A DNA stretch of 64,000 nucleotides. Origin: Crocinitomicaceae bacterium. Lineage in GTDB: Bacteria; Bacteroidota; Bacteroidia; Flavobacteriales_D; Crocinitomicaceae. Shown here piece after piece: positions 58,466 to 64,000 of this stretch. Position 1 is the first letter of the stretch; each line of letters starts with the position of its first letter. Made by a program: the position numbers and the translations under genes. A model generated the notes under the pieces. The model searched no databases, was not told the DNA's origin, and saw nothing but the letters and a program-made list of their open reading frames with translations. The stretch lies in contig JAGOBK010000002.1 of the NCBI GenBank assembly GCA_017983465.1, positions 124,001-188,000 of the forward strand, written 5' to 3'.

Positions 58466-59160
58466 CGTGTTATCATTTTAATCCATTCTTCTTGACTTAA
58501 TACTTGTTCAAGACGATAATGGACTTTTTTATTGAGGCTGTGCCATTCCACGAGGCCAAATCCCTCAGAAAAATAACTGATTCGCTGGATACTTTTGGAA
58601 TTTTCTTTTCGGGTGAATGGGTTGAGAACGGTTAATCTCAAATCATCTGAAAAAACAAGCGTTTCTACCTCATCTTCAATAACTGAATGAGTGGTCTTTT
58701 TCTTATACTGTCTTTTCACTTCACTAAGTAACACGGTTGAATCCACCACGCCTCTAAACTTTGCTGCAAACCATGTTTTTTCCTTCAGATTCATCGGGAA
58801 AAGTTTGTCTTTGTACAGAAGTGTTTTTTCTTTTTCTTGGTTGACATCTACCACCATATAATCCTGTAAATTCAAAGAATCCACGTTGTAGTTATAGGCC
58901 TCTCGAATTCTTCCGTCGCTAGCGTAAACTTCAACAATTAAGTGTTCCCCTGCTTGATCTTTCAGTGCATAAATCCGGTGGAATTCCTCTTCAAGTCCAC
59001 CTGCAACATCTCGGTACAAGTAAATCTTTGGGATGGTATCAACGGGGTAAAAATACGCTGCATTTGGATTTTTTGAAACGAAGCCATTGGAATCATTACA
59101 TGAAGTGAAACCGATGATTAGGGATGAAAAAAGCAGTATAAAAACACCGAAGCGCATCAT
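58462..59160 (-). CDS. Lipoprotein of unknown function
   Basis: 232 aa. Signal peptide with lipobox GFTSC (Cys about 21). The mature part is beta-rich with KIYLYRDVAGGLEEEFHRIY, LIVEVYASDGRIREAYNYN, KTLLYKDKLFP and a C-terminal QVLSQEEWIKMITR helix. I do not recognise the family. The ATG shares one base with the stop codon of the pseudouridine synthase (TAATG), and the 3' end overlaps the barrel gene by 4 nt, so all are tightly coupled. Confidence 0.7.
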   Translation of the reverse strand: MMRFGVFILLFSSLIIGFTSCNDSNGFVSKNPNAAYFYPVDTIPKIYLYRDVAGGLEEEFHRIYALKDQAGEHLIVEVYASDGRIREAYNYNVDSLNLQDYMVVDVNQEKEKTLLYKDKLFPMNLKEKTWFAAKFRGVVDSTVLLSEVKRQYKKKTTHSVIEDEVETLVFSDDLRLTVLNPFTRKENSKSIQRISYFSEGFGLVEWHSLNKKVHYRLEQVLSQEEWIKMITR

Positions 59161-60098
59161 TATTTTGTCATTTTTAGGAAAGAAACTTCTTGTTCTGTTA
59201 AGTGTCTATAAAATCCGCGAGGGAGATCTTTCTTTGTTAATCCGGCAAATTGAACACGGTCTAATTTTACCACGACATAGCCCATCGCTTCAAAAAGACG
59301 GCGAACAATTCGGTTTTTACCGGAATGGATTTCCACGCCTACCTCGGTAGAATTTCCATTTTCAATGTACGAAACCTCATCTACGCGAGCTTTACCATCT
59401 TCCAAATCTACACCGCGCATCAATTTTTCCATATCCTCTTTGGTTACGGATTTATTCAATTCCACGTGATAAATCTTTTTTGCTTGATAGCGAGGATGTG
59501 TCAATTTCTTTGCCATATCGCCATCGTTGGTAAACAAGAGTAATCCGGTAGTTTCACGGTCTAGACGTCCAACAGGATAAATTCGTTCTCGACATGCTTT
59601 TTTCACCAAGGTCATCACTGTTTTTCTACCTCTTGGATCATCCATCGTTGTGATGAATCCCTTTGGTTTATTCAATAAGACATAACGTTTTGTTTCGGCG
59701 TTGATTGTTTCTCCGTCGTATTGGATCACATCTTCTGGAGCAATTTTATAGCCTAATTCTGTGACAATTTTACCGTTCACAGAAACGACACCTGTTTGAA
59801 TGAGGACATCAGCCTCTCTTCTTGAACAAATACCTGCGTTTGACAAATATTTATTTAATCGAACTTGATCTTCGTTAAAAGAAGGCAATGGATCGCCTTT
59901 TTTCACTTTGATTTTATAGTCAATGTATTTTCGTTTGTCACGATCTGTGACTGTTTTTTTATCCGTTGGACCCTTTTTATCCGTTGGTCCTTTTTTGTCT
60001 GTTGCTGGTCGTTTGGATGCAACGGGCTTTCTTCCAGCCGCAGCCGGACGTTTATCCGTTGATTGATTTCCTCTCGATGTTCCGCGTGTATTTCTCAT
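59160..60098 (-). CDS. RluB-family 23S rRNA pseudouridine synthase
   Basis: 312 aa. Residues 1-60 are a basic low-complexity extension with repeated DKKGPT units. The S4 RNA-binding domain is at about 78-125 (VRLNKYLSNAGICSRREADV), and the catalytic domain has LNKPKGFITTMDDPRGRKTV, GRLDRETTGLLLFTNDG with the catalytic Asp, and ENGNSTEVGVEIHSGKNRIVRR. This is the RsuA/RluB/RluE/RluF family; the S4 type and length fit RluB, which modifies U2605 in E. coli. A TATCTTTG box ends 8 nt before the ATG. Confidence 0.9.
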   Translation of the reverse strand: MRNTRGTSRGNQSTDKRPAAAGRKPVASKRPATDKKGPTDKKGPTDKKTVTDRDKRKYIDYKIKVKKGDPLPSFNEDQVRLNKYLSNAGICSRREADVLIQTGVVSVNGKIVTELGYKIAPEDVIQYDGETINAETKRYVLLNKPKGFITTMDDPRGRKTVMTLVKKACRERIYPVGRLDRETTGLLLFTNDGDMAKKLTHPRYQAKKIYHVELNKSVTKEDMEKLMRGVDLEDGKARVDEVSYIENGNSTEVGVEIHSGKNRIVRRLFEAMGYVVVKLDRVQFAGLTKKDLPRGFYRHLTEQEVSFLKMTK

Positions 60099-60106
60099 AA
60101 TTCAAG

Positions 60107-60114
60107 CAAAGATA
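60107..60114 (-). promoter_or_regulatory. Pseudouridine synthase -7 element TATCTTTG
   Basis: Minus strand TATCTTTG, 8 nt before the ATG at 60098. It lies in the 43-nt gap after the SCO gene. The -33 region is not clear. Confidence 0.45.
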
Positions 60115-60141
60115 GAGAAAAGTGTTCGGTATTCCTTTAAA

Positions 60142-60801
60142 TCACTCTTTTTGCAGGCGTTTGATATCAGAAATAAGCTGATTTACTTCCTTTTCTGAGG
60201 TTCCATCATAATAACCACGAATTCTCAACTGTTGATCCACCAGAACAAAGTTATTTGTGTGAATAAAATCACTTCCAGCATCTCCCAGGTTTTGAGCCTC
60301 CGCAGGTTTTAGTACAAAGAATGACTTTCGTGCTAACGCGTATAAGTCTGCTTTTTCACCAGTTAAAAAGTGCCATTTTCCCGAAGTAGCTTGATGACTT
60401 GTGGCATATTTTTTCATTTGCTCAACATCATCTGTATCCGGATCAACCGTAAAACTAAAAATCCGAACATCCTGATCTTTTTTGAATGCTGCATCTACGC
60501 GTTGCATTTGTCTGTTCATGATTGGACAAATACTTTTACATGTGGTGAAAAAATATTCCACAACAGCAATTTTCCCTTTCATGTCCGCCGTTGAAATTAC
60601 CTGAGAATTTTGATTTTGGAAGGAAAATGAACCGATGTGGTGACCAAAGCCTAAACGAAGCATTTCCGGATCAACCATTTCTTCGTTTACGTCAATCGGA
60701 TTAATGATAGGTAAATCCTTTTCTTTTTTCGAACTTGTGAAATAGTATGCAATTGGAATACAAACAAGTAACAATAAGCCTAAAAAGAATATCCGTTTCA
60801 T
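60142..60801 (-). CDS. SCO1/SenC family copper chaperone
   Basis: 219 aa. A single N-terminal membrane helix (about 4-22) anchors a periplasmic thioredoxin-fold domain with FFTTCKSICPIMN (Cys88 and Cys92) and the conserved His181 in DFIHTNNFVLVD. Cys-Cys-His is the Cu site used to deliver copper to the CuA centre of cytochrome c oxidase. No oxidase gene is in the window. It lies 10 nt after the NR-kinase gene; a TAACTTTG box ends 5 nt before its ATG, so it can be transcribed separately. Confidence 0.93.
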   Translation of the reverse strand: MKRIFFLGLLLLVCIPIAYYFTSSKKEKDLPIINPIDVNEEMVDPEMLRLGFGHHIGSFSFQNQNSQVISTADMKGKIAVVEYFFTTCKSICPIMNRQMQRVDAAFKKDQDVRIFSFTVDPDTDDVEQMKKYATSHQATSGKWHFLTGEKADLYALARKSFFVLKPAEAQNLGDAGSDFIHTNNFVLVDQQLRIRGYYDGTSEKEVNQLISDIKRLQKE

Positions 60802-60806
60802 ACCAA

Positions 60807-60814
60807 CAAAGTTA
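60807..60814 (-). promoter_or_regulatory. SCO gene -7 element TAACTTTG
   Basis: Minus strand TAACTTTG, 5 nt before the ATG, within a 16-base stretch identical to that preceding galE. It overlaps the last codons of the upstream NR-kinase gene. Confidence 0.45.
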
Positions 60815-61309
60815 CGATTTTTGCAGGTTCTCGAGTGTGACTTTGACTACATTTTCTCGATCTTTCAAAGAACCCTTCAGCACTGTAAATGGACGATTCA
60901 TTTTTTTTAATTCCGCCTCGTAAAGCTCAAATAATTCTTGACGATTGGAAGGATTTTCCCTCAAAGGGTCTGATTCCCATGGAATATCCGGAGCGCAGAG
61001 AAAGTAGTGATCAAAGATTTGCATTTCGCATGCCTCAAGAATCTTCATCGACACATGTTGATAGCGGTATTCAGACCATATTTTCATGACCGTCATTTCC
61101 GTGTCCGCAACGAAATGATCTCCTTTCGACTGCCAATCCGCAAGTTGACCATTAGTGATTTCATCTAGGTCATTCCTTTCGTAGTCGACTTTATCTTGCA
61201 GGTAATCCCGAGCAAATTCCGAACTTAAAGGGAGATTAAGCTGAAGCGCACACCATTGAGCCATCGTTGATTTACCGCAAGATTCTGGTCCAGTGAAAGC
61301 GATTTTCAT
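60812..61309 (-). CDS. NadR-like ribosylnicotinamide kinase (AAA family)
   Basis: 165 aa from ATG 61309, which overlaps the pnuC stop (ATGA); an in-frame TTG- or ATG-type start at 61333 inside pnuC is less likely. Walker A FTGPESCGKST (6-15), SEFARDYLQDKVDY and FVADTEMTVMKIW fit the kinase domain of NadR, which phosphorylates nicotinamide riboside to NMN. The NMN adenylyltransferase half of NadR is absent, so it is the kinase domain alone. Coupling to pnuC supports NAD-precursor salvage. A small AAA NTPase of other function is the alternative. Confidence 0.82.
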   Translation of the reverse strand: MKIAFTGPESCGKSTMAQWCALQLNLPLSSEFARDYLQDKVDYERNDLDEITNGQLADWQSKGDHFVADTEMTVMKIWSEYRYQHVSMKILEACEMQIFDHYFLCAPDIPWESDPLRENPSNRQELFELYEAELKKMNRPFTVLKGSLKDRENVVKVTLENLQKS

Positions 61310-61878
61310 GGTGCAAGAGGTTTTTTGTACCATTCACGTAATCCATAAACTCCAAGTAGGAAATAAGCGGCATAGAGGATGGTAGTAGCATACAGTTCTG
61401 CATTCCAATATAAAACGATACAAGCCAAGTTAATAACTAACCAATAAATCCAATTTGATTTTTCCTTGAGCGTACTAAGAATTGTTGCAAATAAGGAGAA
61501 TAAGGCAATGAACATATCCCATATGACGGTTTCATTTTGAGTCATTTCCCGGAACGTGCATAATGTGAACCAAGAAATACCTATTCCGATTAAAAGGATG
61601 GTAGGTATCATCATCAAGTGCCTGCTTAGTTTCCAAGATACCAAGGTAATCTCATCTTCTTTATTCCAGGACCAAAAGGCGAAAACACTTAATAGGACAT
61701 ACGCTACCGAAAGAATCGACTGCGCCGGTAAATTGGAACGATAAAAAACAAACACATAAATGAAGGAACTTATTCCACCGGATAACCAGGCCCATTTGTT
61801 CTTTTTTGCCACTAGAAAAAGGTATCCAGCACCAGTTGTAGCCGCTGTCCACTCTATAAGCAGGTCGATAGTTGCCAT
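61306..61878 (-). CDS. pnuC: PnuC nicotinamide riboside transporter
   Basis: 190 aa with about seven membrane helices. The family patterns are AATTGAGYLFLVAKKNKWAW with GGISSFIYVFVFY near the N-terminus, VAYVLLSVFAFWSWN, NWIYWLVINLACIVLYW, and LYATTILYAAYFLLGVYGLREW at the end. PnuC lets nicotinamide riboside diffuse in, and the kinase encoded next traps it as NMN. The 4-nt overlap confirms the pairing. The gene starts directly after the stop of the YxNQA-motif gene, so the three may be one operon. Confidence 0.92.
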   Translation of the reverse strand: MATIDLLIEWTAATTGAGYLFLVAKKNKWAWLSGGISSFIYVFVFYRSNLPAQSILSVAYVLLSVFAFWSWNKEDEITLVSWKLSRHLMMIPTILLIGIGISWFTLCTFREMTQNETVIWDMFIALFSLFATILSTLKEKSNWIYWLVINLACIVLYWNAELYATTILYAAYFLLGVYGLREWYKKPLAP

Positions 61879-62214
61879 TTAGTATAGAAGTTGCTTTTTA
61901 GCAGCATTTCTCCATCCGGCTTGATTCTCATAATCCACAAAGAATATTTTTAGGTCCGCTTGATTTTCATAAGGAACAAAAAAGATGGATTTTTTTGCTT
62001 GATTTTCATATTGTGTAAAAAACCATTTGCCATTATTTTCACCGGCCTGATTTTCGTATTTAACTTTGTACACTTTAAGATCTGCTTGGTTTTCGTATTT
62101 CACGACGTACACTTTTACATCCGCTTGGTTGGCGTAGTTAACAGAGAACACTTTTTGGGAGAATGTATGTTGAAACAACAGAATAAAAAAGGAGGTGAAA
62201 AAGATTTTTTTCAT
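61879..62214 (-). CDS. Small secreted six-fold YxNQA-motif protein
   Basis: 111 aa. Signal peptide 1-20 (…HTFSQ). The mature 91 residues contain six Tyr-x-Asn-Gln-Ala motifs at 27, 40, 53, 69, 82 and 95, spaced 13, 13, 16, 13, 13, each followed by a beta strand (VKVYVVK, LKVYKVK, KWFFTQ, SIFFVP, LKIFFVD). This symmetrical spacing is striking. I recall a Bacteroidota family (DUF6150, named for a 7(1) septoil-knot fold) with this look; that link is from memory. A TATTTTTG box ends 11 nt before the ATG. It ends exactly where pnuC begins. Confidence 0.75.
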   Translation of the reverse strand: MKKIFFTSFFILLFQHTFSQKVFSVNYANQADVKVYVVKYENQADLKVYKVKYENQAGENNGKWFFTQYENQAKKSIFFVPYENQADLKIFFVDYENQAGWRNAAKKQLLY

Positions 62215-62225
62215 GGCGTTTTTTT

Positions 62226-62233
62226 CAAAAATA
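62226..62233 (-). promoter_or_regulatory. Putative -7 element TATTTTTG
   Basis: Minus strand TATTTTTG, 11 nt before the ATG at 62214, in the 38-nt gap after the PorZ-like gene. A -33 element is not clear. Confidence 0.4.
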
Positions 62234-62252
62234 AGGATGTTTTGGAATAACT

Positions 62253-64000
62253 CTAGCGGATCACCATGACTTTACCAACTTTCCGATCTCTTCCATCGAA
62301 ATTCGTTGCGGTCCAGATGAAATAAACTCCTGTTGGTACCTTTTCACCATTCAGATTTTGACCGTTCCACGTTGCTGTTCCGCCATTCGATGTTGTTCTG
62401 TAAATCAAATTCCCGGCAACATCTGTTACTTTCACATCGGAATCATAACGAATTCCTTGAATGGTGACTGGTCCAAAATAATTTGGTTTCACTGGATTTG
62501 GGAAAACAATGACGTTCGAATATTCTGGATCTTCATACGTTGCATTAGTGCGGTAAGAAACAAGTCCTTTATCCGTCACAATATATAATTCCCCCGTTTC
62601 TTGATTCAATTGCAAGTCGACAATTACATTTGAGATAATCGGAGAATTATCAGTTGTAAATTGCTCCAATATTTCCGATCCATCTGCAGAAAGAAGAATG
62701 ATTCCACCATTTGCGGTTCCCATCCACTTGCGATTCCCACCATCCACTTCTATGTCCGTGATGTGCGTTTTACCAAGCACAAATTCTCCATTTCCTTCGA
62801 AATTTATCTTTACTTGCTGAGTATTAAAATCTCCAGGTTGTGCATCAAACGCAGCCGCTGAGTTATATAAAATAGCAAAGCCTGTTTCTGTTCCTATCCA
62901 TAATTCTCCATCAAAATCAGCTGCTAGCGCTGTAACGGCAATGGAGGGCAAATTCCCGCTAAACTCACCTTCATCCAAAGTGATCATCTTGTCATCACTT
63001 GGATCTGAAATGGTTCCGTTATGTTGGTAACCAATAATTCCATCCGTTTTGGTGGCAAACCACAAAATTTCATCGAAATCTTGAATCATCTTGGTGGTAA
63101 ATTTATTCTTGGCATCCGGTCCACAATCAAAACTATACCATGCTCCCGTTTTATCACGCACCTTCAGCGGTTGGTCTGAATACCCGTTTAGCGACCATAA
63201 ATTCCCTCGTTTATCGAATAAGACATCCGAAACGAGGCTCCATCCATTTCCAATACTTGATGGTTTAATGGGCGAATTTGCTCCCGTAAATACAAGCGTA
63301 TCGGAAGTATTCATTAAGGTTAGGGGAAGATAAGAATAGGTACACATAGCCACTTCCGATGTATCATTCGGATTTATTGCTACATCGATAAAATCCCAAA
63401 TTTGTGATTCAGGCCATTGGGTAACATTGGTAACATTTAGGAGTTCCCAATTCGCATTTTGATAAAAATGAACACCATTTCTAGTGAAGCCGGGCGAGCT
63501 GCCATTGATGCGCCCTGAAGCGATGGCTAATTTACCATTTTGTGCATCCATAGCATAAAACTGGTTGTTTTTAGATCCTTCAATTGGATAAGTTTGATAG
63601 GAGATTTCAGATGGATACAAGACCAATCCATGTTTCATATCTGCTGACCATAGTCCAGATTGATTTCTGGCCGTTCGAGAAGAAGAAAACCACGTGCTAA
63701 AGTTTCCTGCCCCATAAGATTCAGGAATTTGTAGGTTGTCGTTGTACAAGTTAATTACACCATCGATATTTACTGATAGGTAATTATCGACAACATTAAT
63801 GGAATTAATTTCAACGGAAAAAGGCAAATTCGTCACAAGTTCTAAATCGGAAGCATTGATGCGATAAACAGAATCTGCTCCGTAGTCGTCTGACTTTTTC
63901 AAAACGACAAGTCGATCGTTGAACAGATCCATTTCTGTGTATTTGTTTGCGGTTTGGTATGGTAAGCGAATGTCCCTTACCCATTGGGAATAATCAGGTA
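62253..64000 (-). CDS. PorZ-like T9SS beta-propeller protein, partial at 5' end
   Basis: At least 582 codons; the frame stays open past 63932 to the window edge, so the N-terminus is missing. Repeated propeller strands (GELWIGTETGFAILYN, RKWMGTANGGIILLS, GNLWSLNGYSDQP) indicate one or two propellers. The end (VFPNPVKPNYFGPVTIQGI, DSDVKVTDVAGNLIYRT, NGEKVPTGVYFIWTATN) is a beta-sandwich T9SS sorting-type domain. Propellers plus this tail fit PorZ, which feeds anionic LPS to the T9SS attachment complex. A two-component-regulator propeller protein is the alternative. Confidence 0.68.
   Translation of the reverse strand, partial: PDYSQWVRDIRLPYQTANKYTEMDLFNDRLVVLKKSDDYGADSVYRINASDLELVTNLPFSVEINSINVVDNYLSVNIDGVINLYNDNLQIPESYGAGNFSTWFSSSRTARNQSGLWSADMKHGLVLYPSEISYQTYPIEGSKNNQFYAMDAQNGKLAIASGRINGSSPGFTRNGVHFYQNANWELLNVTNVTQWPESQIWDFIDVAINPNDTSEVAMCTYSYLPLTLMNTSDTLVFTGANSPIKPSSIGNGWSLVSDVLFDKRGNLWSLNGYSDQPLKVRDKTGAWYSFDCGPDAKNKFTTKMIQDFDEILWFATKTDGIIGYQHNGTISDPSDDKMITLDEGEFSGNLPSIAVTALAADFDGELWIGTETGFAILYNSAAAFDAQPGDFNTQQVKINFEGNGEFVLGKTHITDIEVDGGNRKWMGTANGGIILLSADGSEILEQFTTDNSPIISNVIVDLQLNQETGELYIVTDKGLVSYRTNATYEDPEYSNVIVFPNPVKPNYFGPVTIQGIRYDSDVKVTDVAGNLIYRTTSNGGTATWNGQNLNGEKVPTGVYFIWTATNFDGRDRKVGKVMVIR

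Follow-up and report, generated by a model that had tools for sequence, protein, structure and literature searches.

One four-residue word at six turns of DUF6150 proteins, replaced as a whole between relatives, on a predicted knotted scaffold

Most members of the DUF6150 family repeat one tetrapeptide at six turns of the chain, yet this tetrapeptide is a different one from protein to protein. The YENQ motif of the protein studied here is one among many interchangeable words, a point that was missed in the initial annotation, and judging by the codons the six copies are kept alike by selection at the protein level and not by DNA copying. The protein is furthermore predicted to fold like Q9PR55 of Ureaplasma urealyticum, the most complex protein knot solved. 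A common, unstudied family of the Bacteroidota would thereby be tied to this knot, and the evolution of a knot would become accessible in hundreds of natural variants, variants in repeat number included. In addition, six distant sites that are held to one word and swapped together constitute a clean natural case of higher-order epistasis.

The gene lies in a window of 64,000 nucleotides, the whole stretch of DNA analysed, and is a frame of 111 codons and a stop (Table 1). A probable Sec signal peptide was assigned on the basis that in the relatives the hydrophobic N-terminus ends ahead of Q-K-V, and judging from its sequence the protein is probably exported. The mature protein is made up of six units, each roughly 13 residues long, and ends in a tail of 12 residues. 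Six Tyr-x-Asn-Gln-Ala motifs with a spacing of 13-13-16-13-13 had been described before; we find the motifs at the positions given in Table 1, reading YANQA in the first unit and YENQA in the other five, with exactly this spacing, and the three-residue insert in the middle of the protein is indeed located in GENNGKW between motifs 3 and 4. The further statement that the whole mature protein is built of such units holds for the six units but not for the C-terminal 12 residues (GWRNAAKKQLLY), which lie outside the repeat.

Table 1. Features of the DUF6150 gene, in positions of the window
Feature	Position	Strand	Basis
DUF6150 gene, whole, 111 aa	61879..62214	minus	ORF list and Pfam match
Probable Sec signal peptide, residues 1-19 (MKKIFFTSFFILLFQHTFS)	62158..62214	minus	read by eye
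Mature domain, residues 20-111, model pLDDT 96.4	61882..62157	minus	AlphaFold2
Code 1, residues 27-30, YANQ	62125..62136	minus	motif extraction
Code 2, residues 40-43, YENQ	62086..62097	minus	motif extraction
Code 3, residues 53-56, YENQ	62047..62058	minus	motif extraction
Stretch with 3-residue insert between the two halves, residues 57-64, AGENNGKW	62023..62046	minus	sequence
Code 4, residues 69-72, YENQ	61999..62010	minus	motif extraction
Code 5, residues 82-85, YENQ	61960..61971	minus	motif extraction
Code 6, residues 95-98, YENQ	61921..61932	minus	motif extraction
C-terminal tail GWRNAAKKQLLY, helix in the model (mature residues 85-91)	61882..61917	minus	AlphaFold2 model

As had been anticipated, the protein matches the Pfam profile PF19647 (DUF6150), with an E-value of 2.3e-24 and 85.7 bits against a cut-off of 27, and the profile is covered from position 6 to 98 of 98, i.e. 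over the whole mature domain. It is a full member that shows no difference to the family, to which Pfam gives no function. The second name proposed in the initial annotation, Septknot, was not found as a family name in the literature searched, nor was any paper naming DUF6150; the Pfam label is DUF6150. All nine further proteins scanned, including members with other codes and L044 with its five repeats, match DUF6150 as well.

In profile searches DUF6150 was detected in 59 of 86 genomes of the genus, where its presence is patchy, in 205 of 399 sampled genomes of the order, in 12 of 198 genomes sampled through the phylum and in none of 14 control genomes. The source genome contains a single copy; a second match there (E 0.036) was judged not credible. 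From the genome contig collection 80 of 131 loci were kept, mostly labelled as groups of Bacteroidota. The odd labels Polynucleobacter, Actinomyces and Falkowbacteria are attached to metagenome-assembled contigs, which may be mis-binned.

For the analysis of the word, defined as the four code residues at each of the six turns, pentapeptides were extracted in 216 aligned relatives. A majority word, present in at least 4 of the 6 repeats, was found in 164 of 207 proteins, and 18 such words occur, namely YENQ, YESQ, SKYD, YESR, AEYK, YKSD, NQAY, ADYK, RESY, DKYN, SEYS, AAYQ, YSSQ, SESY, QSYN, REYN, SEWQ and YKSE. YENQ is over-represented in the sample, since the window protein served as the query of the genome contig search. 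All six words are identical in 74 of the 207 relatives, compared to a mean of 0.05 and a maximum of 1 in 300 shuffles dealing the words among proteins, a null that ignores relatedness; per residue and without selection, identity within proteins is 0.88 versus 0.37 after shuffling. No description of this sixfold pattern was found in the literature searched.

Since the shuffle ignores relatedness, the contrast with the strands is the stronger evidence. Between the repeats of one protein, identity at the four code positions is 1.00, 0.96, 1.00 and 0.98 in 15 class representatives, compared to 0.28 at strand offset -5 and 0.19 at offset -3, the within-protein figures being high because the most homogeneous member of each class was picked. 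Between classes and at the same repeat, the code positions show 0.14, 0.31, 0.30 and 0.09 and the two strand offsets 0.81 and 0.89; the strands between the words keep position-specific residues. Coherence is not universal, as L007, both copies in L009, the second copy in L096, L118, L164, L166 and L181 are heterogeneous, and the fold therefore does not demand a common word.

In detail, 218 distinct cores were obtained, of which two shorter than 85 aa were not aligned, and from the 216 aligned ones nine were left out to give the 207. Gaps were the reason for L044, the second core of L032 and the third of L037, weak scores for the second core of L146 and for L008, L010, L011, L012 and L031; among these, L008, L010, L012 and the second core of L146 are heterogeneous. 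L240-L254 stand outside the counts of 207. Eighty regions were chosen by the analyst, mostly higher-scoring ones among the matches listed in the genus and order searches.

Words are exchanged between proteins that are otherwise closely similar. Identity is 78% or higher outside the code but no more than 30% within it in 419 protein pairs, which overlap and hence are not independent. L220 (YESR) and L153 (QSYN), for example, are 93% identical at non-code positions and share 0 of 24 code residues, and in their DNA 71% of the code bases differ versus 21% elsewhere. A tree built without the code columns requires 35 changes for 17 words, although it rests on 68 columns with most forks unresolved and omits the long branches L006, L007, L009, L118, L181 and the second copy in L096. 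Well-supported sisters with different words are L187 (NQAY) and L179 (YKSD; 99/94), L170 (NQAY) and L173 (SESY; 97/90), as well as the window protein and L222 (YESQ; 99/85).

The window gene has a syntenic orthologue, L025, which by inspection of the open frames is flanked by the same set of genes in unchanged order (propeller protein, transporter, AAA protein and SCO1-like protein). The two genes differ by 39 synonymous and 11 amino-acid codon changes, and six of these 11 are Asn to Ser at code position 3, in all six repeats. With 11 random changes over 92 codons this pattern has a probability of 6.5e-7, or 8.4e-6 over 13 registers. L222 differs from the window protein by the same six changes, among 12.

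The words obey a grammar. Exactly one aromatic residue is present in 18 of 18 majority words (column recombination gave a mean of 8.5, and 0 of 5000 trials reached 18), at position 1, 3 or 4 and never at 2. Where positions 2 and 4 are both charged, the charges are opposite in 6 of 6 majority words (shuffle means 2.35 opposite and 2.33 same; p 0.0018), a rule that is weaker among the 118 distinct tetrapeptides, with 20 opposite versus 5 same. Thirteen of the 18 majority words have a net charge of 0 and the other five of -1. Position 2 is the loosest, with deviations from a protein's own majority in 55, 18, 42, 73, 10 and 27 of 207 for repeats 1 to 6. Repeats 1 and 4 (55/73), 2 and 5 (18/10) and 3 and 6 (42/27) are thus alike, which fits the two-times-three symmetry suggested earlier.

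The mature domain was modelled with AlphaFold2 on the basis of 63 aligned sequences, taken exclusively from the window and its related loci, which gave a confident model with a pLDDT of 96.4 and a pTM of 0.84; from the single sequence the pLDDT was 42.7. In mature numbering the model has strands at 2-5, 14-18, 27-31, 44-47, 56-60 and 69-73, a three-residue helical turn at the motif after every strand, and a C-terminal helix at 85-91. The guess of a family with a 7_1 knot is supported by the search of solved structures, in which Q9PR55 (PDB 8IWA, 8IWB, 8JRM) was the only credible match. The top four chains in Foldseek against the PDB are all Q9PR55 (E 0.012 to 0.2) and nothing else has a probability above 0.07. 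VIA-align likewise gave a Z-score of at least 2 in 4 of 89 chains, all four Q9PR55; for 8iwa_A the backbone aligns with Z 6.5, an rmsd of 1.9 A over 60 of 79 residues and 23% identity, a Z-score below 8 being one that may reflect a common arrangement. Nothing was found for the model in the viral fold library.

The 7_1 knot of Q9PR55 was predicted by Brems et al. with a knotted core at 27-83 (PMC9278004), and has been confirmed by X-ray (PMC13352647, PMC11223836). The aligned range of Q9PR55, 25-84, covers this core. From the model we infer a knot of torus type in the window protein, though no crossing number; the model is 22 residues longer over the aligned range, and as these extra residues could alter the winding number, 7_1 would be no more than its putative topology. 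The window protein also differs from Q9PR55 by its probable signal peptide and in that no sequence match was found: neither phmmer nor profile searches listed Q9PR55 up to E 10, nor did another search up to E 1, in which a Lysostaphin match was rejected as one to another repetitive protein. Common descent of the two would be suggested by the predicted fold only.

Another knotted beta-solenoid, the Knotted Solenoid of Brevundimonas, is set apart by its description as a homodimer from another bacterial group with a 3_1 knot formed via a skip-and-backtrack shift (PMC13123833). Its absence from the PDB matches listed by Foldseek carries little weight. In L044 (5001-5294), a syntenic close orthologue, one 13-residue repeat has been lost in frame and five remain, which may change the winding count of the knot.

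As to function, our best guess, held tentatively and with less than even confidence, is a sixfold repetitive binding surface on the knotted scaffold. The protein would be an exported, very compact knotted solenoid of six units, each a beta-strand plus a short helical turn; the four turn residues would be selected as one unit, and the six turns would have to carry the identical word. Together they could make up a single regular surface for binding, beyond the inner membrane, to a repeating partner such as a glycan or another polymer, and a lineage would switch to a different partner when its word is replaced in every one of the six turns. This presumes that the word residues face the solvent and that the surface they form would bind a repetitive ligand. 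Sugar-binding sites usually combine an aromatic with polar residues. The binding surface is slightly favoured because the strands are nearly independent of the word, because the words have an aromatic-plus-polar make-up and because of the paralogue sets, in which co-resident paralogues often have different words. It counts against it that neither a ligand nor a partner nor any conserved neighbourhood of genes came to light in 56 flanked loci, where no other gene family occurs in more than 9 and neighbours are common only to close orthologues. The heterogeneous members and the co-resident paralogues, which do not avoid equal words, also speak against it.

A close rival, held with almost the same confidence, is that the six turns stack like on like inside the protein, so that the word would be a self-consistency constraint of the knotted fold with no outside partner. 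Like-on-like stacking is common in beta-solenoids, and the single aromatic and the opposite charges at positions 2 and 4 fit such an internal ladder equally well. The charge rule in fact favours it, opposite charges being expected where like-charge ladders lie side by side, and the near-neutral net charge of the words and the coupling, which covers all repeat pairs and not chosen ones, speak for it too. However, the strands barely change upon a complete change of the word, as between L220 and L153, which is odd for core packing, and the heterogeneous members persist. Moreover, covariation of the strands (effective 48 sequences) singled out no stacking order, the interleaved orders ranking 35 and 162 of 360 and the sequential one 83.

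An improbable explanation is that copies with the same word assemble with one another, for kin recognition or in insulated fibres, the word being an identity tag. Neighbouring paralogues with different words in G203, G216, G271, G286 and G287 would agree with this, as would the many word changes required for the 17 classes. Yet co-resident paralogues have equal words in 2 of 23 pairs versus 2.1 expected, i.e. there is no avoidance, and neither an immunity nor a toxin partner was seen. Q9PR55, moreover, was reportedly found by Hsu et al. 2024 to be monomeric in solution.

That the word is copied between repeats in the DNA, by gene conversion or unequal crossing-over, is very improbable: although the loss of exactly one repeat in L044 suggests that repeats can recombine, the strands beside the word are not homogenised, where all six words of a protein are identical its code codons agree in 2563 of 4440 cases (0.577), close to the 1712 of 3196 (0.536) for codons of the same residue elsewhere, and codon families are mixed within homogeneous columns, with Ser written by both TCN and AGY in 27 of 47 and Arg by both CGN and AGR in 6 of 10. 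The TCN and AGY families of Ser are not connected by any single synonymous base change. The mixed codons therefore indicate that the six sites arrived at their common residue, or are maintained at it, independently of one another.

The closest precedent for alike repeats that vary at four positions is the WD40 domain of the fungal NLR proteins HET-D and HET-E, in which repeats are similar within a protein and four residues per repeat vary under selection (PMC1805685). There, recombination exchanges repeat units (same source), whereas the repeats of DUF6150 use differing codons and are homogenised at the four code positions only; DNA-level homogenisation of the WD40 type was not found. Taken further, and somewhat unlikely in our view, the knotted scaffold could be a programmable sixfold display, with one grammar-bound word in six turns that is replaceable wholesale on an unaltered scaffold, giving bacteria a repertoire of specific binders or identity tags. 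If so, natural repeat loss as in L044 would also tune the winding number of the knot.

In the window (59160-63998, minus strand), the DUF6150 gene is separated by 38 bases from a preceding Reg_prop protein, which weakly matches a type IX sorting tail. Directly behind the DUF6150 gene comes an NMN transporter (PF04973), and then an AAA_28 protein, SCO1-SenC and a pseudouridine synthase. By eye, a transporter-like frame also comes after DUF6150 in G286 and G287 (L246, L247).

No match to the window protein or L241 was found in the phage and plasmid collections, and seven scans of viral contigs yielded no more than L118, L240 (matching over 20 residues and not used) and L241/L242, the last two on one contig. 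On this IMG/VR contig (L241, 108-4086) the DUF6150 gene lies between McrBC-type restriction genes and an Exo_endo_phos gene, and its six words have only the Tyr at position 3 in common. Distant members of other classes with heterogeneous words are L008, L010 and L012, the latter two with a longer N-terminal region. A further variant (L011 and L031, in G041 and G217) starts, by eye, without a signal peptide and has five YAYEAD-like repeats at a spacing of 13 with no middle insert, followed by a Ser-rich linker, a hydrophobic segment and an SH3-like domain that scores below its cut-off. Finally, L243, L244 and L245 are variable islands with two or three DUF6150 genes each, whose words are mostly different; they also hold small proteins with signal-like N-termini, one weakly DUF6705-like and one without a family.
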